Shown here piece after piece: positions 6,213 to 52,272 of a stretch of DNA of 64,000 bases (position 1 is its first letter; each line of letters starts with the position of its first letter). The position numbers and the translations under genes are program-made. Origin of the DNA: Streptomyces griseus subsp. griseus (GTDB lineage Bacteria > Actinomycetota > Actinomycetes > Streptomycetales > Streptomycetaceae); the NCBI RefSeq assembly GCF_003610995.1, contig NZ_CP032543.1:6634001-6698000 (forward strand). Direction: 5' to 3'. A model generated the notes under the pieces. It made no database searches, was not told the DNA's origin, and saw only the letters and a program-made list of their open reading frames with translations.

Positions 6213-6218
6213 GCAGCC

Positions 6219-7292: not shown

Positions 7293-7439
7293 CCCGCGTG
7301 GAGGCGGGGGCACGGCCCCGGTCGGCCCCGCGCGGACTGCGGTGGTCGGCGGCCGGTGCGAGACTCGACGGGACAGGGAGAAACCCTCGCGCCACCGTGT
7401 GCGGGTGCGGGGCCACGGGATCCGCCGAAGGAGCACGTC

Positions 7440-8234: not shown

Positions 8235-8367
8235 CGGCATACACAGGGCGGAATCAGGGCAGATCCAGGCCGTACGCCGACCGCTCCAGGCCGTCCTCCG
8301 ACCGCCGCGCCCGGCGATTGATGAATCGTTGATCAGTCGTTTATCGCGGCCGGGCACCGTATCTCCC

Positions 8368-8622
8368 ATGCTGATCAACACGGTGACCGAGGACGCGCTC
8401 GACTGGCAGGAGACCGCGTTGTGCGCGCAGGCCGGACCTGAGTTCTTCTTCCCGGCCCCGGGCAGTTCGACGCGCGAGGCCAAGCAGCTCTGCGGAGCCT
8501 GCGAGGGGCGCGTGGCCTGCCTGGAGTACGCACTCGCCAACGACGAGCGGTTCGGCGTCTGGGGCGGGCTCTCCGAGAAGGAGCGCGAACGACTGCGCCG
8601 GGAAGAGCGCAACCGGGGCTGA
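8368..8622 (+). CDS. WhiB-family [4Fe-4S] transcription factor
   Basis: An 84-residue Wbl protein with the four iron-sulfur ligands Cys19, Cys42, Cys45 and Cys51 (C-x22-C-x2-C-x5-C) followed by the GVWGGLSEKER turn and a basic C-terminus for DNA contact. The DWQETALCAQ and ECxxYALANDERFG-like wording resembles sporulation WhiB itself more than WblA, C or D. ATG 8368 gives the family's usual length; an upstream ATG at 8329 would add 13 residues. The promoter contains repeated TTGAT(G/C) words around 8320-8340. It likely works with a sigma factor; the target is unknown. Confidence 0.9.
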   Translation: MLINTVTEDALDWQETALCAQAGPEFFFPAPGSSTREAKQLCGACEGRVACLEYALANDERFGVWGGLSEKERERLRREERNRG

Positions 8623-8684
8623 ACCGCCCCGCCCTCGCCGCCCGGACCGCGGGCACCGTCGGACGGCGCGTCGAGGACGCCTGA

Positions 8685-8903
8685 GGAGCGGGCACCGGTG
8701 TCACGGACACCCTGCTGGTCGTCGCGCGGCCGGCCGGGAGCGGGGACGCGGCCGAGGGCCTGTTCGCCGCCGAACTGACGGTGGCCTGCGCCCGGCGCAC
8801 CGCGTGGACCGGGCCGAGGCGCACCCAGCGGCGGATGCTGCGCCGGCACCCCCGCGGCGACGTACACGACGTGGCGTACGCGGAGGTCACGGCGGTGGAG
8901 TGA
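8685..8903 (+). pseudogene. possible gene remnant
   Basis: Between the Wbl gene and the convergent desaturase lies a GC3-rich open frame with no usable start codon, bounded by TGA 8682-8684 and TGA 8901-8903. It reads GAGTGVTDTLLVVARPAGSG and continues AEGLFAAEL to the C-terminus. The codon pattern looks like genuine coding DNA that has lost its 5-prime part. The ATGTGxTDxLLV-like wording faintly recalls adenosylcobinamide amidohydrolase (CbiZ), but this is a guess. It could equally be chance open frame in GC-rich DNA. Confidence 0.3.
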
Positions 8904-8916
8904 GGGGCGACGGGGG

Positions 8917-9891
8917 TCAGGCGCGGCCGCGCGCGACCATCCGCGCCTTGCGTGCGGCGAGCTTCTCGTCGAACTTCGACGCCTCGCTGTCCAGCCCGCC
9001 CATGTACAGGCCGAGTTCCTCCTGCGCCTTCACGCCCTCCGGGCCGAGCCCGTCGATGTCCATGACCTTCAGATAGCGCAGCACCGGCTGGATCACATCG
9101 TCGTGGTGGATGCGCATGTTGTAGATCTCGCCGATCGCCATCTGCGCGGCGGCCCGCTCGAAGCCGGGCATGCCGTGGCCGGGCATCCGGAAGTTGACGA
9201 CGACATCGCGCACGGCCTGCATGGTCAGGTCCGGGGCCAGTTCGAAGGCGGCGCCCAGGAGGTTGCGGTAGAAGACCATGTGCAGGTTCTCGTCGGTCGC
9301 GATCCGGGCCAGCATCCGGTCGCAGACCGGGTCGCCGGACTGGTGGCCGGTGTTGCGGTGCGAGACGCGGGTGGCCAGCTCCTGGAAGGCGACGTACGCG
9401 ACGGAGTGCAGCATCGAGTGCCGGTTGTCCGACTCGAAGCCCTCCGCCATGTGCGCCATGCGGAACTGCTCCAGCTTGTCCGGGTCCACGGCGCGCGAGG
9501 TGAGCAGGTAGTCGCGCATCACGATGCCGTGGCGGCCCTCCTCGGCGGTCCAGCGGTGCACCCAGGTGCCCCAGGCGCCGTCGCGGCCGAAGAGTGAGGC
9601 GATCTCGTGGTGGTAGCTGGGGAGGTTGTCCTCGGTGAGGAGGTTCACCACGAGCGCGATCTTGCCGATGTCGGTGACCTTGGACTGGTCCGCCGCCCAT
9701 GCCTCGCCGTCCTCGAAGACGCCGGGGAAGTTGCGGCCGTCGGAGAAGGGGACGTACTCGTGGGGCATCCAGTCCTTGGCGACCTTGAGATGGCGGTTGA
9801 GCTCCTTCTCCACCACCTCTTCGAGCGCGTACAGCAGTTGGGCGTCGGTCCACGCCTTCGAACTGCCGAGGTGGGGAGAGGTGATCGTCAC
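8917..9891 (-). CDS. acyl-ACP desaturase (soluble di-iron fatty acid desaturase)
   Basis: A 324-residue soluble stearoyl-ACP desaturase-type protein. The two di-iron motifs are EEGRH near residue 116 and DENLH near residue 202, with the upstream Glu in DNLPSYHHE. It belongs to the actinobacterial DesA branch and would place a double bond into acyl chains on carrier protein, using O2 and ferredoxin. It stands alone with its own promoter. The upstream palindrome at 9918-9935 suggests control by a TetR-like lipid regulator. No reductase gene is adjacent. Confidence 0.92.
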   Translation of the reverse strand: MTITSPHLGSSKAWTDAQLLYALEEVVEKELNRHLKVAKDWMPHEYVPFSDGRNFPGVFEDGEAWAADQSKVTDIGKIALVVNLLTEDNLPSYHHEIASLFGRDGAWGTWVHRWTAEEGRHGIVMRDYLLTSRAVDPDKLEQFRMAHMAEGFESDNRHSMLHSVAYVAFQELATRVSHRNTGHQSGDPVCDRMLARIATDENLHMVFYRNLLGAAFELAPDLTMQAVRDVVVNFRMPGHGMPGFERAAAQMAIGEIYNMRIHHDDVIQPVLRYLKVMDIDGLGPEGVKAQEELGLYMGGLDSEASKFDEKLAARKARMVARGRA

Positions 9892-9917
9892 GGGGAGCTC
9901 CTGGGGACGGGAGAATT

Positions 9918-9935
9918 ACCTACGGCTTCGTAGGT
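9918..9935. promoter_or_regulatory. palindromic operator upstream of the desaturase
   Basis: A perfect inverted repeat ACCTACG-GCTT-CGTAGGT lies 27 bases upstream of the desaturase ATG, and a third half-site CCGTAGGT follows at 9943-9950. The size and symmetry suit a dimeric TetR-family repressor, as known for desaturase control in other bacteria (DesT-type). Position near the expected promoter supports repression. The regulator gene is not in this window. Confidence 0.6.
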
Positions 9936-10061
9936 TACGTGACCGTAGGTTAAGGCGACGGTAAGGGCAAAGCCAAGCCCGTCCCCGAGGGCACCCGGTC
10001 ACGTATCGTGATGCGTGCAGCTCATGCCGGACTTCGCCGTACGTCCAGGGGTCTTCGCAGG

Positions 10062-12371
10062 TCAGCGGGGCTCCTCGGGCAGGCCGAGGTCCCGGCGCAG
10101 ATACCGGGCGGTAACCGAGACGGGGTCCGCCAGCAGCTCCTGCGGGGTCCCCTCGAAGACCAGCTCGCCGCCCTTCTTCCCGCCGTCCGGACCGAGGTCG
10201 ACGACCCGGTCCGCCCGCTTCACCACCTCCAGGTTGTGCTCCACACAGATCACCGTGTTCCCCGCGTCGACCAGCCGGTCGAGCAGGTCTACCAGCGCCC
10301 CGGTGTCGGCCAGGTGCAGCCCGGTCGTCGGCTCGTCCAGGACGTAGACGCTGGAGGTCCGGTGCAGCTGGGTGGCGAGCTTGATCCGCTGGCGCTCACC
10401 GCCGGAGAGGGTGCTGAGGGGCTGCCCGAGCGTCAGATAGGTGAGGCCGACCTCGTCCAGGGTGCGCAGCTTCCGCAGTAGCGCCCGATCCTCGAAGAGT
10501 CCGACCGCCTGTGCCGCCGTCATCTCCAGCACGTCCACGATGGACCGGCCGCCGACCCGGTGTTTCAGGACGTCGTCGTGGAACCGGCGGCCCTCGCACT
10601 CCTGGCAGGTCGTGGTCACCGGGTCCATGAACGCCAGGTCGGTGGAGATCACCCCACGGCCCGAGCAGCCCGGGCAGGCGCCGGTCGAGTTGAAGCTGAA
10701 CAGCCCCGCGTCGACACCGTTCTCCCGCGCGAAGACCTTGCGGATGGCGTCCAGCGCACCGATGTACGAGGCCGGGGTGGAGCGGGAGGAGGCGGTGATC
10801 GCGCTCTGGTCGATGACCACCGCCTGCGGGTGGGCCGCCGTGAACACCTCCGAGACGAGCGTCGACTTGCCCGAACCCGCCACCCCCGTCACCACGGTCA
10901 GCACTCCGGTGGGGAACGACACGTCCAGCCCCTTGAGGTTGTGCAGCTCGGCGCCCCGGACCGGGAGATGCCCGGTGGGGGAGCGGAACTCGCTCTTGAC
11001 GGGGGTGCGTTGACGCAGACAGCGGCCGGTGAGCGTGTCCGCCGCACGCAGCCGGTCGAACGGCCCCTCGAAGACGACATGGCCGCCCTCCGAACCGGCG
11101 CGCGGCCCCATGTCGACGATGTGGTCGGCGACCGCCATCACATCCGGGTCGTGCTCCACCACCAGCACCGTGTTGCCCTTGTCGCGCAGCCGTACCAGCA
11201 GATCGCCGAGCCGCCCGACGTCCCTGGGGTGCAGCCCGATGCTCGGCTCGTCGAAGACGAAGGTCAGCCCGGTCAGGGAGCTCCCCAGATGGCGCACCAT
11301 CTTGAGCCGCTGCCCCTCGCCGCCCGAGAGCGTGGTCGTCTCCCGGTCCAGGCTGAGGTATCCCAGCCCGATCCCCACGAGCCGCTCCAGCCGCTCACGG
11401 GCCGCCGCCGCGATCGGGCCGCCCACCGGGTCGTCGATCCGCGCCAGTACGCCGACGAGATCGGCGACCTCCATCCGCCCGTAGTCGGCGGGCGAGAGCC
11501 CGTCGACGCGGGTGGCGAGCGCCGCCGCGTTCAGCCGCGCGCCGCCGCAGGAGCCGCAGACCCTCTCGACGGTGAACCGGTCGGCCGCCGCACGCCGCTT
11601 GTCCGACAGCGACGCCGTGTCGCGCTTGAGGTAGAGCCGCTCGAACCGGGTCACCACCCCCTCGAACCGCATGTCCGCCGAGCCCGTGCGCAGGTCGAGG
11701 CGGACGGTGAACCCGGATCCGTACAGCAGGAGTCGGCGCTCCTCCTCGCCGTAATCGGAGAGCGGCAGATCGTTGTCGAACCGCCCCGACCCGCCGTACA
11801 GGCTCCACTCCCAGCTGCCCACCGAGAGCCCGGGCAGCAGCAGCGCCCCCTCGTTCAGCGACTTCGACCAGTCCACCGCCCGGTCCAGATCGAGGCGGAC
11901 CGTCCGCCCCACCCCGTCGCACTCCGGGCACATCCCCGCCGGGTCGTTGAAGGAGTACGCGCTCGCCCCGCCGGCGCTCGGGGCGCCGTACCGGGAGAAC
12001 AGCACCCGGAGCACCGACCAGATGTCCGTCGCCGTGCCCACGGTCGACCGGACGTTGCCGCCGAGCGGCCGCTGGTCGATGACGACGGCCACGGACAGGT
12101 CCTCCATGGACTCGGCCCGTGGCCGCTCGTACTTGGGCAGCCGGTTCCGCAGGAACGAGGTGAAGGTCTCGTTCAGCTGCCGCTGGGACTCCACGGCGAT
12201 CGTGTCGAAGACGACCGACGACTTCCCCGAACCGGAGACCCCCGTGAAGACGGTGATCCGGCCCTTCGGCAGGGTGAGGGAGACATCGCGCAGATTGTTC
12301 TCGTGCGCCCCGGTGATGGCGATGGGGCGCACGGTCGGCTGGTGGTGGTTCGTGGCGGTGCTGTGATCCAT
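10062..12371 (-). CDS. UvrA-like ATPase (short, resistance-type paralogue)
   Basis: A 769-residue tandem ABC ATPase of the UvrA family. Walker A boxes are GVSGSGKSS near residue 45 and GVAGSGKST in the second half; signatures are LSGGEGQR and LSGGERQR. Zinc-binding Cys pairs appear as CPECDGVG, CGSCGG, CPGCSGRG and CQECEG. Housekeeping UvrA is about 950-1000 residues, so this is the shorter paralogue class that includes DrrC, linked to resistance to DNA-binding drugs. It follows the ABC-F gene on the same strand after 66 bases, so the two may be co-transcribed as a resistance pair. Confidence 0.88.
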   Translation of the reverse strand: MDHSTATNHHQPTVRPIAITGAHENNLRDVSLTLPKGRITVFTGVSGSGKSSVVFDTIAVESQRQLNETFTSFLRNRLPKYERPRAESMEDLSVAVVIDQRPLGGNVRSTVGTATDIWSVLRVLFSRYGAPSAGGASAYSFNDPAGMCPECDGVGRTVRLDLDRAVDWSKSLNEGALLLPGLSVGSWEWSLYGGSGRFDNDLPLSDYGEEERRLLLYGSGFTVRLDLRTGSADMRFEGVVTRFERLYLKRDTASLSDKRRAAADRFTVERVCGSCGGARLNAAALATRVDGLSPADYGRMEVADLVGVLARIDDPVGGPIAAAARERLERLVGIGLGYLSLDRETTTLSGGEGQRLKMVRHLGSSLTGLTFVFDEPSIGLHPRDVGRLGDLLVRLRDKGNTVLVVEHDPDVMAVADHIVDMGPRAGSEGGHVVFEGPFDRLRAADTLTGRCLRQRTPVKSEFRSPTGHLPVRGAELHNLKGLDVSFPTGVLTVVTGVAGSGKSTLVSEVFTAAHPQAVVIDQSAITASSRSTPASYIGALDAIRKVFARENGVDAGLFSFNSTGACPGCSGRGVISTDLAFMDPVTTTCQECEGRRFHDDVLKHRVGGRSIVDVLEMTAAQAVGLFEDRALLRKLRTLDEVGLTYLTLGQPLSTLSGGERQRIKLATQLHRTSSVYVLDEPTTGLHLADTGALVDLLDRLVDAGNTVICVEHNLEVVKRADRVVDLGPDGGKKGGELVFEGTPQELLADPVSVTARYLRRDLGLPEEPR

Positions 12372-12437
12372 ACCGGCGACGGTAGGCGGGATACCCGACA
12401 GCTTCTGTCGCCTTTTCCCGAGATCCTCCGCGACGGC

Positions 12438-14069
12438 TCACCGCCCGGCCCGCACCTCCTCCGCCGAGGTGTCCCGCAGCTCCCCGTCCAGCCGCAGCCA
12501 CCGGGTGATCCCGATCGACTCCAGGAACGGCACGTCGTGGCTCGCCACGATCAGCGCCCCCTCGTACGCGTCGAGGGCCTCGGTCAGCCGCCGTACGCTC
12601 GCCAGGTCGAGGCTGTTCGTCGGCTCGTCCAGCAACAGCAGCCGGGGCGCCGGGTCCGCGAGCAGCAGCATCGCCAGCGTCGCCCGGAACCGCTCCCCGC
12701 CCGACAGCGTCCCGGCCGGGTGGTCGGCGGCGCCCCCCGTGAAGAGGAAGCGCGCCAGCCGGGCCCGGACTTCGTTGTCGGTGAGGCCGGGGGCCGACCA
12801 CTTCACGTTCTCCGCCACCGACAGCGCGTCGTCCAGCGTGTCCAGCCGCTGCCGGAGGAAGCCCAGCGGCAGCGGCGTCGAAACCTCGCCGGAGACCGGG
12901 GCGAGCTCGCCCGCGATCGTCCGCAGCAGCGCCGTCTTGCCCGCTCCGTTGCGCCCGGTCAACGCGATCCGCTCGGGCCCCCGGACCGTCAACTCCCCGC
13001 CCAGCGGCGGCCCGTAGGGCGGCACCGGGTCGCGCAGGAGGAGCACATCGCTCCCCGGATGCACCCGCGTCCTCGGCAACTCGATGCGGATCTCCGCGTC
13101 CTCGCGCACCGCCGACTCCGCCTCGTCGAGACGCTCCCGGGCCTGGGCCAGTCGCTCGGTGTGCAGGGTGCGGTGCTTGCCGGCCGACTCCTGGGCGGAC
13201 CGTTTGCGCTGGCCCATCACCACCTTGGGCTCCCGCCTGGTGTCCCACATCTTCTGCCCGTACCGCCTGCGCCGGGCCAACTTCATATGTGCCTCTGCCA
13301 GTTCGCGCTTCTGCCGCTGGACATCCGACTCGGCGGCCCGCACCATCCGCTGCGCCGCCTCCTGTTCGACCGCGAGCGCCTCCTCGTACGCCGAGACGTT
13401 TCCGCCGTACCAGGTGACCGAGCCGTCCCGCAGATCCGCGATCCGGTCGACGCGCTCCAGCAGCTCCCGGTCGTGGCTCACCATGAGCAGCGCCCCGCTC
13501 CAGGAGTCGACCGCGTCGTACAGCCGCTTGCGGGCCACCGCGTCCAGGTTGTTCGTCGGCTCGTCCAGCAGCAGCACCCCGGGGCGGGCCAGCAGCAGGG
13601 CGGCGAGGCGCAGCAGCACGCACTCGCCGCCGGACATCTCCCCGACCGTGCGGTCCAGGCCGATATGGCCGAGGCCGAGCCCGTCAAGGGTGGCGCGGGC
13701 GCGCTGCTCCACGTCCCAGTCCTCGCCGATCAGGGTGAAGAGCTCCTCGCGTACGTCACCGGCCGCGACGGCGTCGATCGCCGCCCGCCGGTCCGCGATG
13801 CCCAGCACCTGATCGACCCGGAGCGCGGTGTCCAGGGTCACCGTCTGCGGCAGATACCCGAGGCCGCCACGGATCCTGATCCTGCCCTCCAGTGGGGCGA
13901 GTTCACCGGCGATCAGCCGCAACAGGGTGGATTTGCCGCATCCGTTGAGCCCGATGAGCCCGGTGCGGCCGGGGCCCGCGGCGAGGTCGAATCCGGCGAA
14001 GACCTCGGTGCCGTCGGGCCAGGAGAAGGAGAGGGAGGTACAGCTGATGTGGGTGTCGGACGCAGACAT
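12438..14069 (-). CDS. ABC-F ribosome-protection-type ATPase
   Basis: A 543-residue duplicated ABC protein without membrane segments. Walker A boxes are GLNGCGKST and GRNGAGKTA; signatures are MSGGE and LSGGERF; Walker B boxes are LLLDEPTNNLD and LLLDEPTNSLD. A charged helical linker with RRRRYGQKMWD joins the halves, as in antibiotic-resistance ABC-F proteins that act on the ribosome. ATG 14069 was chosen because GGGAGAT precedes it; a longer open frame upstream to 14147 is less likely. A long leader hairpin (14118-14187) precedes it. Note the second Walker A ends in T-A rather than T-T or S-T. Confidence 0.9.
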   Translation of the reverse strand: MSASDTHISCTSLSFSWPDGTEVFAGFDLAAGPGRTGLIGLNGCGKSTLLRLIAGELAPLEGRIRIRGGLGYLPQTVTLDTALRVDQVLGIADRRAAIDAVAAGDVREELFTLIGEDWDVEQRARATLDGLGLGHIGLDRTVGEMSGGECVLLRLAALLLARPGVLLLDEPTNNLDAVARKRLYDAVDSWSGALLMVSHDRELLERVDRIADLRDGSVTWYGGNVSAYEEALAVEQEAAQRMVRAAESDVQRQKRELAEAHMKLARRRRYGQKMWDTRREPKVVMGQRKRSAQESAGKHRTLHTERLAQARERLDEAESAVREDAEIRIELPRTRVHPGSDVLLLRDPVPPYGPPLGGELTVRGPERIALTGRNGAGKTALLRTIAGELAPVSGEVSTPLPLGFLRQRLDTLDDALSVAENVKWSAPGLTDNEVRARLARFLFTGGAADHPAGTLSGGERFRATLAMLLLADPAPRLLLLDEPTNSLDLASVRRLTEALDAYEGALIVASHDVPFLESIGITRWLRLDGELRDTSAEEVRAGR

Positions 14070-14117
14070 ACGGATCTCCCGTGTACGTCGGGGAATGAGC
14101 GCGGGACGGCTGACGAG

Positions 14118-14187
14118 CTGAGATCGCACACGGGCGCCTGAGGCCACGGACGAGCCGTGGCGGCGCTGCGCGGTGCGGGGATCTCAG
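14118..14187 (-). promoter_or_regulatory. long structured leader (possible attenuator) of the ABC-F gene
   Basis: Nested complementary segments fold into one imperfect hairpin: 14118-14125 with 14180-14187 (CTGAGATC), 14126-14129 with 14173-14176, 14134-14138 with 14162-14166, and 14143-14149 with 14155-14161 (GCCACGG, loop ACGAG). On the gene strand it starts about 50 bases upstream of the ABC-F ATG. Many ABC-F resistance genes are switched by ribosome-sensed attenuation, which this could support. There is no U-run, so termination is not proven. Confidence 0.5.
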
Positions 14188-14321
14188 ATCAGCAACGTCC
14201 CTCTCCGATCCGACGACAACAGGAACATCACCAAGGTAGAACCGGGGCGCACGGCCCGGCAACGGGTTTTCGGCCGGGAGCCCGTGCGGCCGTTCCGTTC
14301 AGCTGAGCGGTGGCCCGCCGG

Positions 14322-14738
14322 TCAGCAGGCGCCGCCCAGCAGATCGGTCAGATCCCGGTCCAGCTCCAGATAGCGGTACTCGTCGCCCGCCGGCACCAGC
14401 TCCTGCGCCCGCTCCAGGAAATGGCGCAGCTCAGCCGTGCGCACGTGGACCATGGCGATGCCCTCGGCCGCGTGGAACTCCAGCACCGTCCGCTCGTACC
14501 CGAACGGCCTGACCCGGACGTCGCCCTCCCCGGCCGGGGTGTCGACCCCTGCCGTCAGCAGCTCGCGGGAGAACTCCCAGGACACCTCGGTCCCCTCCAG
14601 GGTCGCCGGGGCCGGGAACGCCATCCGCACGGCGAAGGGGTCCTTGCGGTCGTAACTCAGTGTGGCCGGCAGGGTTTCCATCCGCGGGGCGGACGCGACC
14701 ATGCGGGCCTGCACGGACTGCTCGATAACGCTGGACAA
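14322..14738 (-). CDS. SsgA-like (SALP) sporulation/cell-division regulator
   Basis: The core SYDRKDPFAVRMAFPAPATLEG, WEFSRELLTAGVD, GDVRVRPFG, RTVLEFHAAEG and MVHVRTAELRHFLERA is the SsgA-like protein signature found only in sporulating actinomycetes. SALPs help place FtsZ and remodel the wall during septation. TTG at 14738 behind GGGAGC gives 138 residues, the family's usual length; an in-frame ATG at 14801 would add 21 residues of atypical composition. The protein ends LLGGAC. It is monocistronic, ending near the ABC-F promoter region. Confidence 0.88.
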   Translation of the reverse strand: MSSVIEQSVQARMVASAPRMETLPATLSYDRKDPFAVRMAFPAPATLEGTEVSWEFSRELLTAGVDTPAGEGDVRVRPFGYERTVLEFHAAEGIAMVHVRTAELRHFLERAQELVPAGDEYRYLELDRDLTDLLGGAC

Positions 14739-43993: not shown

Positions 43994-44971
43994 TCAGGTA
44001 CGGGCCTCCGGGTGGCGCAGGCACCAGCCCTCCCAGGCCGACTCCACCATCGACCGCACATCCCGGCGGGCCGTCCATCCCAGCGCCTCGGCCATCAGCG
44101 CGTCCGACGCCACCGCCCTCGCCGCGTCACCCGGACGGCGGGTCTCCACCACCGGCTCCACCGCGTACCCGGTGACATCGAGGATCATGTCGATCAGCTC
44201 CCGCACCGAGACGCCCTCGCCCCGGCCGACGTTCAGCGTCAGATCGCCGCCCTCCGCCTCGGCCAGCTTCCGGGCGGCGGCGAGGTGGGCCTCGGCCAGG
44301 TCCGCGACATGGATGTAGTCGCGGACACAGGTGCCGTCGGGCGTCGGGTAGTCGTCACCGAAGATCCGGGGCGCCTCACCCCGCGTCAGCCGGTCGAAGA
44401 CCATCGGGACGATGTTGAAGATCCCGCTGTCCGCCAGCTCGGGCTCGCCCGCCCCCGCCACGTTGAAGTACCGCAGACAGGCGGTGGAGATCCCGTGCGC
44501 CCTGCCCGTCGCCCGCACCAGCCACTCCCCGGCGAGCTTGGTCTCGCCGTACGGGTTGATCGGCAGGCAGGGCGTCTCCTCGGTGATGAGCTCCACATCC
44601 GGTACGCCGTAGACGGCCGCCGACGACGAGAAGACGAACCGCCGCACACCCGCCGCGACCACGGCCTCCAGCAGCACGCCCAGCCCGGCGATGTTCTCCC
44701 GGTAGTACAGCAGGGGCTTCTCCACGGACTCGCCGACCTGCTTCTTCGCCGCGAGATGCACCACACCGCTCACCGCGTGACCGGCGAGCACCCGGTCCAG
44801 CAGAGCCCGGTCCGAGGCCGAGCCCTCCACCAGCGTGACGGCCTCCGGCAGCCGGTCCGCGACGCCCGTGGAGCCGTCGTCGACCACGACGACCCGCTCA
44901 CCCGCCGCGACCATGGCCCGCGCCACGTGTGCCCCGATGTATCCCGCCCCGCCTGTGATCAGCCATGTCAT
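43994..44971 (-). CDS. galE: UDP-glucose 4-epimerase
   Basis: A 325-residue SDR-fold enzyme: WLITGGAGYIGAHVARAM (NAD site), VHLAAKKQVGESV, SSSAAVYG, and the catalytic NPYGETK (Tyr-x3-Lys). CVRDYIHVADLAEAHL is typical of GalE. It makes UDP-galactose (or UDP-GalNAc) for glycans. It diverges from the CDP-alcohol phosphotransferase gene and may supply its glycosyltransferase partner. Start ATG 44971; the longer upstream frame is not coding. Confidence 0.93.
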   Translation of the reverse strand: MTWLITGGAGYIGAHVARAMVAAGERVVVVDDGSTGVADRLPEAVTLVEGSASDRALLDRVLAGHAVSGVVHLAAKKQVGESVEKPLLYYRENIAGLGVLLEAVVAAGVRRFVFSSSAAVYGVPDVELITEETPCLPINPYGETKLAGEWLVRATGRAHGISTACLRYFNVAGAGEPELADSGIFNIVPMVFDRLTRGEAPRIFGDDYPTPDGTCVRDYIHVADLAEAHLAAARKLAEAEGGDLTLNVGRGEGVSVRELIDMILDVTGYAVEPVVETRRPGDAARAVASDALMAEALGWTARRDVRSMVESAWEGWCLRHPEART

Positions 44972-45209
44972 GACGGCCAGCCTAAGCGTCGGGCCCACCC
45001 GGTCCGACCGGCGGTTTGTGGGCCGGGGCACCGATCGATGATGATGATCGCGAACGGAACCGGCTCGAGCAGGTCCACCCGAACGGCGCACAAACAGGTG
45101 GTGAACTCGGCCTTCCGTTCATCCGATAGCCTCAGCCGACACGCCGCCGGCCCGCCCTGTGGCCGTGCTGCCGTGTGTCGTCCTCGTCAGTGCCAAGGAG
45201 TGAGTTCGT

Positions 45210-47042
45210 CTGTCGACCGCCATTCTCACCGGTACGCCGGTACCCGGGTCGTCGCTCGCGGACGATCTGCGGTCCCTCGGCTTCGACGTGCTCACCGCCG
45301 TCGACGCCGGTGACGCCGCAGCGCTCCTCGCCGCCGTCCCGGCCGGCCGCCGGGTCGCGCTCGTCGACCCGCGCTTCGTGGGCCACGTCCACGCGCTGCG
45401 GCTCGGCCTGACCGACCCGCGCTTCGCCGCCGCCGCCGTCCCCGGTGCGCTCACCGCCCAGCCCGAGGCCCGCGGGGCCCTGCTGCGCGCGCTGCACCGC
45501 ACCACCGCCGCCGTCGGCGCGGGCGCCCCCGTCGTCGCCCAGCACACCGACCCGGCACCCGAGGACCGCACCGTCCCCGGCCGTATCGCCGTCGCGCTGG
45601 AGGCCGAAGGCACCGCCGTCAAGCGCCCCGAGCTGGGATCGCTCACCGCCACCGTCCCCACCGACGCCGGAGCGCGGGCGACCGCCGAGACCGCCCGCGA
45701 CGAGATCGACGACGAGGCGGTACGGCTGCGCAGCGCGGTCAAGGCCCACGACGGCTTCTTCACGACCTTCGCCATCAGCCCGTACTCCCGCTACATCGCC
45801 CGCTGGTGCGCCCGCCGGAACCTCACCCCGAACCAGGTCACCACCGCGTCCCTGATCACCGCGCTCATCGCGGCGGGCAGCGCGGCCACCGGTACCCGGG
45901 GCGGCTACATCGCCGCCGGGATCCTGCTCCTGGTCTCCTTCGTGCTGGACTGCACCGACGGGCAGCTCGCCCGCTACTCGCTGCGGTACTCGACGATGGG
46001 CGCCTGGCTGGACGCCACCTTCGACCGGGCCAAGGAGTACGCGTACTACGCGGGCCTCGCCATCGGCGCCGTACGCGGCGGCGACGACGTCTGGGTGCTG
46101 GCGCTCGGGGCGATGGTCCTCCAGGCCTGCCGCCATGTCGTGGACTTCTCGTTCAACGAGGCCAACCACGACGCGGTCGCCAACACCAGCCCCACCGCCG
46201 CCCTCTCCGACAAGCTGGACAGCGTCGGCTGGACGGTCTGGGCGCGCCGGATGATCGTGCTGCCGATCGGCGAGCGCTGGGCCATGATCGCGGTGCTCAC
46301 CGCGTTCACCACTCCCCGCATCGTCTTCTACGCCCTGCTCGTCGGCTGCTCCCTGGCCGCCTGCTACACCACCGCCGGCCGCCTCCTGCGCTCGCTGACC
46401 CGCAAGGCCGGGCGCACCGACCGCGCCGCCCAGGCCCTGGCGGACCTCGCCGACTCCGGCCCCCTCGCCCAGGGCGTCGCGGCGGTCGCCCCCGGACCGC
46501 GGGGCGCGTTCACCGCCCCGGCCGTCGCCCTGCTCGGCACCCTGGTCATGGTCGGCGCCGCGCTCTTCCTCCCGTACGGGAGCCGGCTCACCGTCGCGGC
46601 CGCGGCGGTGTACGTGGTGCTCTCCGGCCTGGCCGTGGCCCGCCCGCTCAAGGGCGCCCTGGACTGGCTGGTGCCGCCGTTCTTCCGGGCCGCGGAGTAC
46701 GTCACGATCCTCGTGCTGGCCGCCCGCAGCGACGTACCGCACGCCGTTCCGGCGGCTTTCGGACTGGTTTCGGCCGTCGCCTACCATCACTACGACACGG
46801 TGTACCGCATCCGCGGAGGCACCGGCGCGCCGCCCCGGTGGCTGGTGCGCACGATCGGTGGACACGAGGGCCGTACCGCGCTGGTGGCCGTCCTCGCCGC
46901 CGTACTCACCCACGCCTCAGGTTTCACCACGGCCCTCACCGCCCTCGCGGTGGCCGTGGCTCTGGTGGTGCTCGTGGAGTCCATCCGCTTCTGGGTGTCC
47001 TCCTCGGCCCCCGCCGTACACGACGAAGGAGAACTCGCATGA
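45210..47042 (+). CDS. large CDP-alcohol phosphotransferase with N- and C-terminal extensions (DUF5941-type)
   Basis: About 610 residues if begun at CTG 45210, nine bases after AAGGAG; the first GTG in frame (45288) would drop 26 conserved-looking residues (STAILTGTPVPGSSLADDLR). Residues 1-180 are an Ala-rich nucleotidyltransferase-like region of unknown role. Residues 190-400 are the CDP-alcohol phosphatidyltransferase domain with the full motif DCTDGQLARY...G264...D268...D272 (all four Asp present). The C-terminal 200 residues hold further membrane helices. It would move a phospho-alcohol from CDP onto a lipid or glycan acceptor in the membrane. Its TGA overlaps the next ATG. Confidence 0.82.
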   Translation: MSTAILTGTPVPGSSLADDLRSLGFDVLTAVDAGDAAALLAAVPAGRRVALVDPRFVGHVHALRLGLTDPRFAAAAVPGALTAQPEARGALLRALHRTTAAVGAGAPVVAQHTDPAPEDRTVPGRIAVALEAEGTAVKRPELGSLTATVPTDAGARATAETARDEIDDEAVRLRSAVKAHDGFFTTFAISPYSRYIARWCARRNLTPNQVTTASLITALIAAGSAATGTRGGYIAAGILLLVSFVLDCTDGQLARYSLRYSTMGAWLDATFDRAKEYAYYAGLAIGAVRGGDDVWVLALGAMVLQACRHVVDFSFNEANHDAVANTSPTAALSDKLDSVGWTVWARRMIVLPIGERWAMIAVLTAFTTPRIVFYALLVGCSLAACYTTAGRLLRSLTRKAGRTDRAAQALADLADSGPLAQGVAAVAPGPRGAFTAPAVALLGTLVMVGAALFLPYGSRLTVAAAAVYVVLSGLAVARPLKGALDWLVPPFFRAAEYVTILVLAARSDVPHAVPAAFGLVSAVAYHHYDTVYRIRGGTGAPPRWLVRTIGGHEGRTALVAVLAAVLTHASGFTTALTALAVAVALVVLVESIRFWVSSSAPAVHDEGELA

Positions 47043-47776
47043 TCGGCCTCGTACTGGCAGCCGGTGCAGGACGACGTCTGCGCCCCTACACGGACACGCT
47101 CCCCAAGGCGCTCGTCCCTGTCGACGGCGACAAGACGGTCCTCGACCTCACGCTGGCCAACTTCGCGGAGGTCGGACTCACCGAGGTCGCGATCGTCGTC
47201 GGCTACCGCAAGGAGGCCGTCTACGCGCGCAAGGCCGAGCTGGAGGCGACGTACGGCCTCACGCTCACGCTCATCGACAACGACAAGGCCGAGGAGTGGA
47301 ACAACGCCTACTCCCTGTGGTGCGCCCGTGACGTCATCAAGCGCGGCGTGATCCTCGCCAACGGCGACACCGTGCACCCGGTCTCCGTCGAGAAGACCCT
47401 GCTGGACGCCCGCGGCAAGGGCCAGAGGATCATCCTCGCGCTGGACACCGAGAAGAGCCTCGCCGACGAGGAGATGAAGGTCATCACCGAGGAGGGCAAG
47501 GGCGTCCAGCGCATCACCAAGCTGATGGACCCGGCCGCCGCCACCGGTGAGTACATCGGCGTCACCCTCATCGAGGCCGAGGCCGCCGAGGAGCTCGCCG
47601 ACGCCCTGAAGACCACCTTCGAGCGCGACCCCGACCTCTACTACGAGGACGGCTACCAGGAGCTCGTCAACCGCGGCTTCACCGTCGACGTCGCCCCCAT
47701 CGGCACCGTGACCTGGGTCGAGATCGACAACCACGCCGACCTCGAGAAGGGCCGTGAGATCGCGTGCCAGTACTGA
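47039..47776 (+). CDS. CTP:phosphoalcohol cytidylyltransferase-like NTP transferase
   Basis: A 245-residue single-domain nucleotidyltransferase. The sugar-nucleotide signature is LVLAAGAGRRLRPYTDTLPKAL and the NNAYSLW motif and ANGDTV metal site place it with LicC (phosphocholine) and inositol-1-phosphate cytidylyltransferases. It would form the CDP-activated alcohol used by the two phosphotransferases on either side. ATG 47039 overlaps the upstream stop by four bases and follows GAAGGAG. The alcohol is unknown; glycerol-1-phosphate is suggested by the next gene. Confidence 0.85.
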   Translation: MIGLVLAAGAGRRLRPYTDTLPKALVPVDGDKTVLDLTLANFAEVGLTEVAIVVGYRKEAVYARKAELEATYGLTLTLIDNDKAEEWNNAYSLWCARDVIKRGVILANGDTVHPVSVEKTLLDARGKGQRIILALDTEKSLADEEMKVITEEGKGVQRITKLMDPAAATGEYIGVTLIEAEAAEELADALKTTFERDPDLYYEDGYQELVNRGFTVDVAPIGTVTWVEIDNHADLEKGREIACQY

Positions 47777-48825
47777 CCCGGCTCATTCCGTCCCCGGTCG
47801 TCGTCGACATCCGGCGCGGCGCCATGGACGATCTGGCGGGTCTCCTGGCCGATCAGCGGATCTCCTCCTCGGGCAAGCTGGCCATCGCGATCAGCGACGG
47901 GTCCGGGCGCGCCCTGCGGGAGAGGCTCGCCCCGGACCTCCCGGGTGCCGACTGGTACGCCGTCGCCGACGGCACGATCGACTCCGCGGTGAAGCTCGCC
48001 GACGGCATCAAGGGCAACCGGTACGACGCCGTGGTGGGCCTCGGCGGCGGCAAGATCATCGACGTGGCGAAGTACGCCGCGGCGCGGGTCGGGCTGCCCA
48101 TGGTCGCCGTCGCGACGAACCTCTCGCACGACGGCCTCTGCTCGCCTGTCGCCACCCTGGACAACGACAACGGGCGCGGCTCCTACGGGGTCCCCACCCC
48201 GATCGCCGTGGTCATCGACCTCGACGTGATCCGTGAGGCGCCCGCCCGCTACGTCCGCTCGGGCATCGGCGACGCGATCTCGAACATCTCCTGCGTCGCC
48301 GACTGGGAGCTGGCCCACGAGGTCAACGGCGAGGAGATCGACGGCCTCGCGGCCGCGATGGCCCGCCAGGCCGGGGAGGCCGTGCTGCGCCACCCCGGCG
48401 GGGTCGGCGACGACGCCTTCCTCAAGGTGCTGGCCGAGGGGCTGGTGCTGACCGGCATCTCGATGTCGGTCGCGGGCGACTCCCGTCCGGCCTCCGGCGC
48501 CTGCCACGAGATCAACCACGCCTTCGACCTGCTCTACCCGCACCGCGCGGCCAGCCACGGCGAGCAGGTCGGCCTCGGCGCCTGCTTCGCCATGCATCTG
48601 CGCGGCGCCCGCCAGGAGTCCCTCCTGATGGCATCGATACTGCGCCGCCACGGTCTGCCGGTCCTGCCGCAGGAGATCGGGTTCAGCGTCGACGAGTTCG
48701 TGAAGGCCGTCGACTACGCGCCGCAGACGCGTCCGGGACGCTTCACGGTCCTGGAGCACCTCAACCTGTCCACCGACCAGATCAGGGACGCGTACGCCGA
48801 CTATGCCTCGACCATCAGTAGCTGA
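47764..48825 (+). CDS. sn-glycerol-1-phosphate dehydrogenase homologue (archaeal/AraM type)
   Basis: A 353-residue iron-containing-ADH-fold protein. Its blocks match archaeal and AraM G1P dehydrogenases as I recall them: GLGGGKIIDVAKYAA (NAD site), NLSHDGLCSPVATL, CVADWELAHEV, SMSVAGDSRPASGACHEINHAFD (metal His) and ASHGEQVGLG (metal His). It would reduce dihydroxyacetone phosphate to sn-glycerol-1-phosphate, the archaeal lipid enantiomer. GTG 47764 lies inside the end of the cytidylyltransferase gene (13-base overlap), and its own end overlaps the next gene by 23, showing tight coupling. A different phosphoketose substrate is possible. Confidence 0.82.
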   Translation: MPVLTRLIPSPVVVDIRRGAMDDLAGLLADQRISSSGKLAIAISDGSGRALRERLAPDLPGADWYAVADGTIDSAVKLADGIKGNRYDAVVGLGGGKIIDVAKYAAARVGLPMVAVATNLSHDGLCSPVATLDNDNGRGSYGVPTPIAVVIDLDVIREAPARYVRSGIGDAISNISCVADWELAHEVNGEEIDGLAAAMARQAGEAVLRHPGGVGDDAFLKVLAEGLVLTGISMSVAGDSRPASGACHEINHAFDLLYPHRAASHGEQVGLGACFAMHLRGARQESLLMASILRRHGLPVLPQEIGFSVDEFVKAVDYAPQTRPGRFTVLEHLNLSTDQIRDAYADYASTISS

Positions 48826-49582
48826 ACTCCGCCCGGTCGTGCACCCCCCGGGGGTGAAGGACCGGCGCAGCGGCGAGCACTGGGCCGGCCGCATGTACAT
48901 GCGTGAGGTCTCCCTGCGCGTGGACCGCTACCTGGTGAACACCCGGGTCACCCCGAACCAGGTCACGTACGTGATGACGCTGGCCGGCGCCCTGGCCGCC
49001 CCGGCGCTGCTGGTGCCGGGCATCTGGGGCGCGGTGCTCGGCGTGGTGATGGTCCAGCTCTACCTGCTGTTCGACTGCGTGGACGGCGAGCTGGCCCGCT
49101 GGAAGAAGCAGTACTCGCTCAGCGGCGTCTACCTGGACCGGGTCGCCGCCTACCTGTGCGACGCGGCGGTGCTCGTCGGCCTCGGCCTGCGCGCCGCCGA
49201 CATCTGGGGCGAGGGCCGGACCGACTGGCTCTGGGCGTTCCTCGGGACGCTCGCCGCGCTCGGCGCGATCCTGATCAAGGCCGAGACGGACCTGGTCGGC
49301 GTGGCCCGTCACCAGGGCGGGCTGCCGCCGGTCAAGGAGGCGGCGTCCGAGCCGCGCTCCTCCGGTATGGCGCTGGCCCGCCGGGCGGCCGGCGCGCTCA
49401 AGTTCCACCGGCTGATCCTCGGGATCGAGGCCTCGCTGCTGATCCTCCTGGTGGCGATCCTGGACACCATCGGTGGCGACCTCTTCTACACCCGCCTCGC
49501 CACCGCCGTCCTGGCCGGCATCGCGCTGCTGCAGACCCTGCTGCACCTGGTGTCCGTCCTGGCGTCCAGCAGGCTGAAGTGA
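48803..49582 (+). CDS. second CDP-alcohol phosphotransferase with altered catalytic motif
   Basis: A 259-residue membrane protein with about six helices and the CDP-alcohol phosphotransferase motif D91-CV-D94-GELAR-WKKQYSLS-G108-VYL-D112. The fourth Asp, four residues after D112 and normally the catalytic base, is Ala116 here (LDRVAAYLCD). It may use a nearby acid, act as a regulatory partner, or have different chemistry. It overlaps genes on both sides. A role with the larger paralogue at 45210 is likely. Confidence 0.85.
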   Translation: MPRPSVAELRPVVHPPGVKDRRSGEHWAGRMYMREVSLRVDRYLVNTRVTPNQVTYVMTLAGALAAPALLVPGIWGAVLGVVMVQLYLLFDCVDGELARWKKQYSLSGVYLDRVAAYLCDAAVLVGLGLRAADIWGEGRTDWLWAFLGTLAALGAILIKAETDLVGVARHQGGLPPVKEAASEPRSSGMALARRAAGALKFHRLILGIEASLLILLVAILDTIGGDLFYTRLATAVLAGIALLQTLLHLVSVLASSRLK

Positions 49583-50463
49583 CCCCTGCCATGAAACTGG
49601 GCGCGGTGGTCATCACCATGGGCGACCGCCCCGACGAGCTCCGCACCCTCCTCGACTCGGTCGCCGCGCAGGACGGCGACCGGATCGAGGTCGTGGTGGT
49701 CGGCAACGGGGCCCCGGTCCCGGACGTCCCGGCCGGGGTGCGGACCGTGGAGCTGCCCGAGAACCTGGGCATCCCCGGCGGCCGCAACGTCGGCATCGAG
49801 GCGTTCGGCCCGTCCGGCGCCGACGTGGACGCCCTGCTCTTCCTCGACGACGACGGGATGCTCCCCAACCGGGACACCGCCGAGCTGTGCCGGCAGGCGT
49901 TCGAGGCCGACCCGAAGCTCGGCATCGTCACCTTCCGGATCGCCGACCCGGACACGGGTGCCACCCAGCGCCGCCATGTGCCCCGGCTCCGGGCGGCCGA
50001 CCCGATGCGCTCCTCACGCGTGACGACCTTCCTCGGCGGCGCCAACGCCGTACGGACGACGGTCCTCGCCGAGGTCGGCGGGCTGCCGCAGGAGTTCTTC
50101 TACGCCCACGAGGAGACGGACCTGGCCTGGCGGGCGCTGGACGCGGGCTGGATGATCGACTACCGCGCGGACATGGTGCTGAACCACCCCACCACCGCCC
50201 CCTCCCGGCACGCGGTCTACCACCGCATGGTGGCCCGCAACCGGGTCTGGCTGGCCCGCCGCAACCTGCCCGCCCCGCTGGTCCCCCTCTATGTGGGGGT
50301 CTGGCTGCTGCTGACGCTGGTCAGACGCCCGTCGCCGCCCGCGCTGAAGGCATGGTTCGGCGGTTTCCGGGAAGGCTGGTCGACACCCTGCGGACCCCGG
50401 CGCCCGATGAAGTGGCGTACGGTGTGGCGCCTGACGAGGCTGGGCCGACCTCCGGTCATCTGA
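49579..50463 (+). CDS. GT2-family glycosyltransferase
   Basis: A 294-residue GT-A protein. VVITMGDRPDELRTLLDSV and VVGNGAPVPD form the nucleotide pocket, LFLDDDGML is the metal DxD site, and EEFFYAHEETDLAWRA carries the acceptor/catalytic ED. This resembles rhamnosyl- or galactofuranosyl-transferases. A C-terminal hydrophobic segment (LVPLYVGVWLLLTLV) may hold it to the membrane. GTG 49579 overlaps the upstream stop (GTGA); ATG 49591 is an alternative. It would decorate the polymer or lipid of this cluster. Confidence 0.88.
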   Translation: MTPAMKLGAVVITMGDRPDELRTLLDSVAAQDGDRIEVVVVGNGAPVPDVPAGVRTVELPENLGIPGGRNVGIEAFGPSGADVDALLFLDDDGMLPNRDTAELCRQAFEADPKLGIVTFRIADPDTGATQRRHVPRLRAADPMRSSRVTTFLGGANAVRTTVLAEVGGLPQEFFYAHEETDLAWRALDAGWMIDYRADMVLNHPTTAPSRHAVYHRMVARNRVWLARRNLPAPLVPLYVGVWLLLTLVRRPSPPALKAWFGGFREGWSTPCGPRRPMKWRTVWRLTRLGRPPVI

Positions 50464-50564
50464 GAGGCTTTCCTCTGAGAGCATGAGGCGTATTTTCTTT
50501 CCGGAACCTGTCCGCCTGAGCCGCGCCCGCGACTGGCTGCGCGTGAAGACGAGAGTTTCAACTT

Positions 50565-51494
50565 GTGAGTGACACGACCCATGACGGCGGGGTAGCCCTC
50601 GGGACCCCGCCGTCCGCCGACGAGGGCCTCGGCGCGGCCCAGCTGGCCGCCAAGTACGGCCTGACCGTGAGCGGCGCCCGGCCGGGGCTGTTCGCATACA
50701 TGAGACAGCTCTGGGGACGGCGCCACTTCATCCTGGCCTTCTCCCGGGCGAAGCTGACCGCTCAGTACAGCCAGGCCAAGCTGGGCCAGCTGTGGCAGGT
50801 GGTCACCCCTCTCCTGAACGCCGCTGTCTATTACCTGATCTTCGGACTGATCCTGGGGACCAGGAGGGGCATTCCGGACGACGTCTTCGTGCCGTTCCTG
50901 GTCACCGGCGTCTTCGTCTTCACCTTCACGCAGAGCTCCGTGATGGCGGGCGTCAAGTCGATCTCCGGCAACCTCGGACTGGTCCGGGCCCTCCACTTCC
51001 CCCGGGCCTCGCTGCCCATCTCCTTCTCGCTCCAGCAGCTCCAGCAGCTGATGTTCTCGATGATCGTGCTGGTCGCCGTCACCGTCATCTTCGGCAGCTA
51101 TCCGTCGCTGTCGTGGCTGCTGGTCGTCCCGGCGCTGCTCCTCCAGTTCGTCTTCAACACCGGCCTGGCCCTCGTCATGGCGCGGCTCGGCTCCAAGACC
51201 CCCGACCTCGCGCAGCTGATGCCGTTCGTCATGCGGACCTGGATGTACGCCTCGGGCGTCATGTTCTCCATCCCCGTGATGCTCAAGGACAAGCCCGCGT
51301 GGATCGCCGACGTGCTCCAGTACAACCCGGCGGCCATCTACATGGACCTGGTCCGCTTCGCCCTGATCGACGGGTACGGCTCCGAGAACCTGCCGGACCA
51401 CGTCTGGGCCGTCGGCCTCGCCTGGGCCCTGCTGCTGGGAGTCGTGGGATTCGTGTACTTCTGGAAGGCAGAGGACCGGTACGGCCGTGGCTGA
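50565..51494 (+). CDS. ABC-2 exporter permease, TagG/Wzm type
   Basis: A 309-residue protein with six membrane helices after a 45-residue cytoplasmic N-tail (KLTAQYSQAKLGQLWQVVTPLLNAAVYYLIFG is the typical start, quoted here in part: QAKLGQLWQVVTPLL). The family exports teichoic acids and O-antigen. It follows a 101-base gap after the glycosyltransferase, so it may have its own promoter. It overlaps the ATPase gene by eight bases. Substrate inferred as the product of the preceding genes. Confidence 0.9.
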   Translation: MSDTTHDGGVALGTPPSADEGLGAAQLAAKYGLTVSGARPGLFAYMRQLWGRRHFILAFSRAKLTAQYSQAKLGQLWQVVTPLLNAAVYYLIFGLILGTRRGIPDDVFVPFLVTGVFVFTFTQSSVMAGVKSISGNLGLVRALHFPRASLPISFSLQQLQQLMFSMIVLVAVTVIFGSYPSLSWLLVVPALLLQFVFNTGLALVMARLGSKTPDLAQLMPFVMRTWMYASGVMFSIPVMLKDKPAWIADVLQYNPAAIYMDLVRFALIDGYGSENLPDHVWAVGLAWALLLGVVGFVYFWKAEDRYGRG

Positions 51495-52272
51495 GGACAA
51501 CGCACAGGGACGCATCCCCACGGTGATCGCCGACGATGTCCACATCGTCTACCGGGTCAACGGCACCGGCGGCGGCCGGGGCAGCGCCACCGCGGCGCTG
51601 AGCCGCATGCTGCGCCGCGGCAAGGGCGAGCCGCGCGGGGTCAGGAAAGTGCACGCCGTGCGCGGCGTCTCCTTCACCGCCTACCGCGGCGAGGCCATCG
51701 GCCTCATCGGCACCAACGGCTCCGGCAAGTCGACGCTGCTGCGGGCCATCGCCGGCCTGCTGCCGACCGAGTCCGGCCATGTCTACACCGACGGCCAGCC
51801 CTCGCTGCTCGGCGTCAACGCGGCGCTGATGAGCGACCTCACCGGCGAGCGCAACGTGGTCCTGGGCGGCCTGGCCATGGGGATGACCCGGGACGAGGTC
51901 CGCGAGCGCTACCGCGAGATCGTGGACTTCTCCGGCATCAACGAGAAGGGCGACTTCATCACCCTGCCGATGCGGACGTACTCCTCCGGCATGGCGGCAC
52001 GCCTGCGCTTCTCCATCGCCGCCGCCAAGAACCACGACGTCCTCATGATCGACGAGGCGCTGGCCACCGGTGACCGCAAGTTCCGGGTCCGCTCCGAGGA
52101 GCGGATCCGCGAGCTCCGCAAGGAGGCGGGCACCGTCTTCCTGGTCAGCCACAACAACAAGTCGATCCGGGACACCTGCGACCGGGCGCTCTGGCTGGAG
52201 AAGGGCGAACTCCTGATGGACGGCCCCACCGAGGAAGTCCTCAAGGCCTACGAACGCGAGACGGGCAAGTAG
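51487..52272 (+). CDS. ABC exporter ATPase, TagH/Wzt type
   Basis: A 261-residue ATPase. Walker A GTNGSGKST, the polysaccharide-exporter signature TYSSGMAARLRF and Walker B VLMIDEALATGD place it with TagH/Wzt. It lacks the C-terminal carbohydrate-binding domain of long Wzt proteins, as in short teichoic-acid types. Pairs with the permease immediately upstream. A strong terminator follows its stop, closing the cluster. Confidence 0.92.
   Translation: MAEDNAQGRIPTVIADDVHIVYRVNGTGGGRGSATAALSRMLRRGKGEPRGVRKVHAVRGVSFTAYRGEAIGLIGTNGSGKSTLLRAIAGLLPTESGHVYTDGQPSLLGVNAALMSDLTGERNVVLGGLAMGMTRDEVRERYREIVDFSGINEKGDFITLPMRTYSSGMAARLRFSIAAAKNHDVLMIDEALATGDRKFRVRSEERIRELRKEAGTVFLVSHNNKSIRDTCDRALWLEKGELLMDGPTEEVLKAYERETGK

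Follow-up and report, generated by a model that had tools for sequence, protein, structure and literature searches.

Archaeal membranes are marked stereochemically by sn-glycerol-1-phosphate (G1P). Several described systems handle glycerol phosphates in ways that bear on a cluster of seven genes, here called g1 to g7, in Streptomyces griseus subsp. griseus. The cluster occupies about 45210..52272 of the 64,000-nucleotide window analyzed here (contig NZ_CP032543.1, positions 6,634,001 to 6,698,000; the host genome is a single contig of 7.24 Mb), and coordinates below are those of the window unless another locus is named. With just over even confidence, we propose that the cluster as a whole would form a dedicated bacterial CDP (cytidine diphosphate)-sn-glycerol-1 pathway for the cell envelope.

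The archaeal G1P dehydrogenase EgsA (solved structures 4rgq, which we take to be the M. jannaschii enzyme, and 5fb3) shares with the g3 protein a side of the family tree, the metal ligands, and the SRPxSG motif. However, g3 stands on a separate actinobacterial branch, scores below a curated family cut-off, and lies beside a predicted cytidylyltransferase gene in a host with no detected PcrB/GGGPS. The AraM/PcrB system of Bacillus resembles the predicted role of the cluster in that G1P is formed in a bacterium, but AraM carries an SVDGF or SMDGY motif where the g3 branch has S[HN]DGxxSP, and the host lacks a PcrB match. The Archaeoglobus route through CDP-1-glycerol and glycerophosphoinositol (AF2299, IPCT-DIPPS) follows the same logic of cytidylyltransferase and phosphotransferase, whereas the Streptomyces cluster adds a linked G1P dehydrogenase, a glycosyltransferase, and a TagGH exporter, and its second phosphotransferase is without the fourth aspartate of the family motif. 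The wall teichoic acid pathway (TagF/TagGH, CDP-sn-glycerol-3) has a closely related exporter, but the cluster holds no Glyphos_transf gene and is predicted to rely on phosphotransferases in the membrane and on glycerol of the opposite configuration. The LtaS pathway places sn-glycerol-1-phosphate outside the cell, as is predicted for the cluster; lipoteichoic acid (LTA) synthase, however, uses phosphatidylglycerol and works outside the membrane, whereas the cluster is predicted to rely on a CDP donor in the cytoplasm and on export by an ABC transporter.

Earlier papers are cited for the passages that bear on the locus. Streptomyces homologues of G1P dehydrogenase have been noted before (PMC5059525, PMC6431249), and a paper of 2026 describes a Streptomyces synteny of crtB, tagH, tagG, araM, a CDP-alcohol transferase, GT2, and a nucleotidyltransferase, which it ties to teichoic acid and secondary metabolism; unlike the present analysis, the passage concerned holds no chemistry, active-site, or tree test (PMC13118837). 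CDP-glycerol is described as sn-3, and the sn-1 units of LTA are said to derive from phosphatidylglycerol (PMC7086022, PMC5974469); digestion with GlpQ tells sn-3 polymers apart from sn-1 polymers (PMC7086022). The sn-glycerol-1-phosphate contained in bacterial LTA and phosphatidylglycerol does not come from CDP-glycerol (PMC7086022, PMC5974469, PMC8262930). The original prediction had regarded a Streptomyces envelope polymer or lipid built on sn-glycerol-1-phosphate as new, a view that cannot be kept in this form since LTA and phosphatidylglycerol already contain this unit. The synteny, too, is now published. What would be new is a CDP-1-glycerol donor. According to one passage, bacteria are expected to lack CDP-1-glycerol (PMC8262930), and among the titles and passages that we found in open-licence literature, none proposes a bacterial CDP-1-glycerol pathway.

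Results

The g3 gene (47764..48825, plus strand) encodes an Fe-ADH_2 domain protein that, judged from its sequence, is a member of the G1P dehydrogenase superfamily on a separate actinobacterial branch. Its closest solved relatives are 3ce9 and 4rgq. In a tree of 52 proteins, seven glycerol dehydrogenases split at 100/100 from the 45 other rows, which comprise EgsA (2 rows), AraM (4), clostridial-type proteins (3), and actinobacterial proteins (36). Placement within the G1P dehydrogenase/AraM clade had been set in advance as a test of the original prediction, and g3 does fall on the EgsA/AraM side of this split. That g3 is itself an AraM is not supported by the tree, as the AraM rows form a branch of their own (100/99) apart from it. 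Glycerol dehydrogenases were used as the outgroup in place of AroB, the branch of which was too long in a first tree. Both the tree and the residue table described below sample 14 of the 80 named loci and 7 of the 12 glycerol dehydrogenase loci, and the PDB sequences of EgsA (two), 3ce9, and 9h4x enter them in part only; 9h4x appears from its motif and its position in the tree to be an AraM. The entry 3ce9 is deposited as a glycerol dehydrogenase, yet it groups on the G1P dehydrogenase side and is without the arginine of the SRPxSG motif.

The residue table, built on an alignment separate from that of the tree, covers 26 typical positions of our own listing, each common to at least five of six EgsA/AraM references and present in no glycerol dehydrogenase row. 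At 17 of these, the g3 protein agrees with the references. All 36 members of the actinobacterial branch keep G124, D180, W181, L227, M234, S240, R241, P242, S244, H252, and R326, and R323 is kept in 35. Putative metal ligands are H248 and H265 (36/36 branch members) and D170 (35/36); these residues are equally invariant in the EgsA/AraM references and in the glycerol dehydrogenases, and the ligand role of Asp170, His248, and His265 is our presumption. Overall, we consider it quite probable that g3 is a true G1P dehydrogenase.

The gene overlapping the start of g3 is g2 (47039..47776, plus strand), which encodes a LicC/IPCT-like nucleotidyltransferase with an NTP_transferase domain, predicted to be a CTP (cytidine triphosphate):sn-glycerol-1-phosphate cytidylyltransferase. 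At E <= 1e-15, its profile matches five solved chains, namely LicC, PntC, an unnamed nucleotidyl transferase, and two IPCT entries, in agreement with the LicC/IPCT-like transferase of the original prediction. The closest solved relatives use CTP, and D110 and D230, which we take to be the catalytic aspartate pair, are invariant in 18 aligned rows (the alignments hold 18 of the 21 g3 proteins and 18 of the 20 g2 proteins then collected). Among 101 loci that were gathered by g3 similarity alone and have enough upstream sequence, 97 have a g2 relative within 200 nt of g3, and the adjacency is kept in 10 loci in which g3 is just 36–43% identical (L043–L052). A profile search of the host genome gave no match for PcrB/GGGPS, with the control positive in 7 of 14 genomes. 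Two PF13685 matches are present in the host, and the second, in an open reading frame (ORF) that was read rather than scanned, looks like AroK-AroB. Given the adjacency of g2, the lack of a PcrB match, and the AroK-AroB nature of the only other PF13685 protein, the product of g3 most likely feeds a cytidylyltransferase, and we lean toward CDP-1-glycerol as the compound that g2 would make.

These data also bear on whether G1P could instead be committed to archaeal-type ether lipids, as by AraM/PcrB in Bacillus. Membership of g3 in the G1P dehydrogenase family would fit such a fate, and the relevant passage of Coleman et al. 2019 counts Streptomyces among genera in which the three archaeal lipid genes occur together (PMC6431249), but with no PcrB match in this host and with g3 tied to a nucleotidyltransferase in nearly all loci (97/101), an ether-lipid fate is barely credible here.

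The products of g1 and g4 belong to the CDP-alcohol phosphotransferase family. The g1 gene (45210..47042, plus strand) encodes a membrane protein of 610 residues in three parts. Residues 1–165 have a nucleotidyltransferase fold in which the LAAGxGxR motif is missing, residues ~180–400 form a CDP-alcohol phosphotransferase core with the full D..DG..AR...G...D...D motif and all four aspartates (D1 to D4), and residues 404–609 correspond to DUF5941, which has the transmembrane fold of the CDP-alcohol phosphotransferases. No D..DG..AR was seen in the alignment of this last domain, which looks like an inactive version of the fold. A match of the DUF5941 profile to the g1 alignment (97%) was dropped because it involves read-through sequence that is not part of the first row; against g4, the same profile gave 0.7%. 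In Streptosporangiaceae, the g1-type core and DUF5941 are encoded by separate genes, and the two may form a heterodimer. Among 80 g1-type ORFs, 73 carry the full motif (46 at 141 bits or above, 27 weaker) and seven carry none, one of the latter (L133) being cut by a contig end. The g4 gene (48803..49582, plus strand) retains D1–D3 and has A116 in place of D4. The best solved sequence match of both proteins, and the best Foldseek match of g1, is AF2299, an enzyme described as using CDP-glycerol as its donor (PMC4634129).

The next three genes, all on the plus strand, encode a GT2 glycosyltransferase identified by domain match (g5, 49579..50463), a TagG-type ABC-2 permease (g6, 50565..51494), and a TagH-type ABC ATPase (g7, 51487..52272). 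The host's wall teichoic acid cluster has a TagG/TagH pair of its own, standing beside five TagF/TarF-type genes; identity to this pair is 66% for g6 and 76% for g7. The exporter named in the original prediction is therefore near the genome's own teichoic acid exporter; with the NCBIfam TagH model, however, g7 reaches 174 bits, the cut-off being 320. A domain scan of the seven genes found no Glyphos_transf (TagB/TagF) gene, and six are present elsewhere in the genome. No TagD above its curated cut-off was found in the host. A second CDP-alcohol locus in this genome (L179, ~5.973 Mb), at 6427–8939 of that record, holds a phosphotransferase and a TagD-like match below the cut-off, together with an unscanned ORF that reads like a glycosyltransferase.

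A homologue of g3 is present in 199/199 sampled Streptomyces genomes. In a phylum-wide sample, 49 of 296 genomes match g3 at 1e-20, and 14 do so at 48% identity or more, nine of them Streptomyces; only these 14 are counted as close relatives, weaker partial rows being left aside. DUF5941 occurs in 13 of the 296 genomes, all among the 14 close carriers of g3; it is missing in G045 and lies ~0.9 Mb away in G204. Twenty larger regions were chosen from 47 matched genomes, with the host and its near twin G107 excluded. By thresholds that we set ourselves, and with some loci incomplete at their fetched ends, the 80 named loci include relatives of the nucleotidyltransferase in 78, g4 in 50, GT2 in 47, DUF5941 in 45, the g1 core in 40, TagG in 22, TagH in 20, and hpnC in 12. 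Gene order, the conservation of which had been raised with the original prediction, is kept in Streptomyces and partly beyond.

The 14 Streptomycetaceae-like loci are informative with respect to the fate of the activated glycerol. CDP-1-glycerol could end up in a small product, either a soluble one such as a glycerophosphoinositol-like solute or a simple lipid of phosphatidylglycerol-like kind, formed when a lipid alcohol is the acceptor in a Kennedy-type transfer; GT2 and TagGH would then serve a side branch. A cholinephosphotransferase match might be read in this direction, but it may reflect helix packing alone, and the presence of GT2 and TagG in 13 of these 14 loci and of TagH in 12, along with the 66–76% identity of the exporter to the wall teichoic acid pair, makes a small product rather improbable. 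The hopanoid genes hpnC/hpnD, which follow from 52707, ~430 bp past the cluster, raise the further possibility that the cluster decorates hopanoids. The gene hpnC is indeed in the fetched flank of 12 of the 14 loci, but it reaches 300 bits in the fetched flank of 0/66 others, and its distance from g7 exceeds 3 kb in G171 (L034) and L149. With adjacency limited to Streptomycetaceae-like loci, we rejected hopanoid decoration, the probability of which appears very small.

The seven ORFs foreseen in the original prediction are all present on the plus strand in the order g1–g7, and with the starts chosen here, the first five overlap serially as it had said, by 4 nt (g1/g2), 13 nt (g2/g3), 23 nt (g3/g4), and 4 nt (g4/g5). 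The last of these values holds only with GTG 49579 as the start of g5, an ATG being available at 49591. A gap of 101 nt separates g5 from g6, and TagG and TagH overlap by 8 nt. The likely start of g1 is CTG 45210, with an in-frame TGA at 45201 and AAGGAG at 45195–45200; the first ATG/GTG/TTG start in this frame is GTG 45288, and the N-terminal domain as read from the CTG is modeled confidently (predicted local distance difference test score of 92 for residues 1–10). Scans of the locus for promoters and terminators found none. Upstream lies a divergent galE (43994–45091), and a plasmid record of S. fungicidicus is annotated with the identical order, galE and hpnC/D included.

Several further loci were observed in the course of this analysis. 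In some Streptomyces genomes, the g3 homologue is present twice (e.g. G361, G403, G452, G457, and G465), and in S. griseoluteus (L135), the fetched stretch holds only relatives of g2 and g3. A record titled Streptosporangium nondiastaticum (L147) contains a cluster (galE, g1–g7, hpnC/D) that resembles those of Streptomyces both in gene order and in sequence similarity, and its name may mislead. In another family, from which one locus was scanned (L046), the nucleotidyltransferase–G1P dehydrogenase pair is accompanied by two PF01663 phosphodiesterases, a sugar transferase, and DUF4012; this operon-like run, at 5698–14380 of that locus, is another possible G1P envelope system. A plasmid of Nitratidesulfovibrio vulgaris (L066, NC_017311.1) carries at 8815–9864 a solo gene of the G1P dehydrogenase superfamily, next to a SpoIIE phosphatase; genes for type III secretion export lie upstream of it. 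On a plasmid of Rubrobacter indicoceani (L070, NZ_CP031116.1, 889–11589), two genes annotated as sn-glycerol-1-phosphate dehydrogenase sit among FGGY kinases, rpiB, and two glycerol-3-phosphate dehydrogenases in what looks like a catabolic setting.

Discussion

In the pathway that we propose, g3 would reduce dihydroxyacetone phosphate, its presumed substrate, to sn-glycerol-1-phosphate, and g2 would combine this product with CTP, the two presumed substrates of g2, to give CDP-1-glycerol. An archaeal precedent for CDP-1-glycerol is an activity of A. fulgidus that prefers Gro1P (glycerol-1-phosphate) (PMC8262930). g4, acting with g1, would then transfer glycerol-1-phosphate from CDP-1-glycerol to an acceptor, presumably a lipid or a growing chain; g1, with its inactive-looking DUF5941 half, would be either a partner of g4 or a second enzyme. 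Sugar addition by g5 and export by TagGH would follow, the putative final product being a glycolipid or a short teichoic-acid-like polymer. The order of these steps is one that we infer; the families, active-site residues, linkage, exporter kinship, and undetected PcrB/GGGPS come from sequence and models.

A number of observations count against this pathway. The tree program warned of long branches meeting, and the actinobacterial branch that holds g3 has moderate support (84/91). Against PRK00843, the NCBIfam equivalog for G1P dehydrogenase, g3 scores 236.2 bits where the curated cut-off is 413, and for this reason we call it a superfamily member on its own branch instead of filing it under the equivalog. 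It deviates at 9 of the 26 typical positions (R138, T145, I151, N174, S176, S233, C247, N251, and D255). C247 is adjacent to the putative ligand H248 and is Glu in 6/6 references; in the branch, the residue is Cys in 18 members, Glu in 11, and Asp in 7. Such an enzyme could have moved to a different phosphorylated keto or aldehyde substrate, in which case g2 would make a different CDP-alcohol and the remaining envelope pathway would stand. The score below the cut-off, the depth and separateness of the branch, and the nine deviations, that beside the putative metal ligand included, all favor a change of substrate, as does the lack of a reported activity for the g3 branch in the literature passages considered. 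On the other side are R241 and R326 (36/36) and R323 (35/36), which are absent from the glycerol dehydrogenases and are supposed to bind phosphate. R241 is lost in 3ce9 and the Cytobacillus homologue but kept in the g3 branch; it is also missing in Priestia AraM, which has His at this position. We judge a different substrate to be unlikely, though not negligible.

The phosphotransferase steps meet objections of their own. D4 is missing in 60/60 g4-type ORFs at 151 bits or above, and in the mycobacterial phosphatidylinositol phosphate synthase, replacement of D4 by Asn is described as nearly abolishing activity (PMC4634129). Four further ORFs labeled g4, at 20–22 bits, are Micromonosporaceae proteins in which D4 is present. 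The g1 core, in turn, shows no motif and looks degenerate in 4/4 Nocardiopsidaceae loci (L091, L092, L106, and L119) and in the Actinomadura loci L139 and L145, the match in L139 being weak (19 bits) and possibly affected by a frame problem. In the fetched stretch of these six loci, g4 is the sole motif-bearing phosphotransferase. In the g4 alignment, D1–D3 are present in 28/28 rows, with His (21) or Ala (7) at the fourth position. The idea that g4 is a plain dead enzyme is weakened by these last two results, and taken together they suggest that g4 is probably active with an altered motif. Of the two CDP-alcohol phosphotransferases in the original prediction, then, the family membership of both holds, but g1 has an additional nucleotidyltransferase-fold domain and a pseudo-phosphotransferase, and g4 lacks D4 throughout.

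Distribution and cargo set further bounds. Four of the 101 loci depart from the g2–g3 pairing, the g2 relative being ~3 kb upstream in L042 and none being seen in L040, L071, and L072. In Micromonosporaceae, 24/24 loci have the nucleotidyltransferase and g3, and behind these two lies a single, more distant phosphotransferase that carries the full motif; no relatives of g4, GT2, or TagGH exceeded our thresholds within the fetched flanks. Because of these 24 loci, the polymer part of the pathway is not universal. The cargo of TagGH, moreover, may be anything lipid-linked.

The proposed pathway touches on an older question about Streptomyces. In the passages concerned, S. hygroscopicus is reported to have an LTA of the polyglycerolphosphate type that is close to the wall teichoic acid of this species, Thermobifida and Agromyces are named as containing LTA, and actinobacterial genomes are said to be without clear LtaS orthologues (PMC3196553). 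The cluster offers a genetic entry to the question of how Streptomyces has polyglycerolphosphate LTA without a clear LtaS (PMC3196553), and it is a candidate for filling the LtaS gap in Streptomyces LTA synthesis. More speculatively, and with a probability well below even, Streptomyces may have the first known bacterial CDP-sn-glycerol-1 pathway, genus-wide, making LTA-type glycerol-1-phosphate material inside the cell with a phosphotransferase of unusual motif and exporting it through TagGH. If true, genus-wide G1P synthesis, CTP activation, and delivery to the envelope would overturn the expected absence of CDP-1-glycerol from bacteria, and the LTA-type reading would explain how Actinobacteria that lack LtaS make lipoteichoic acid.

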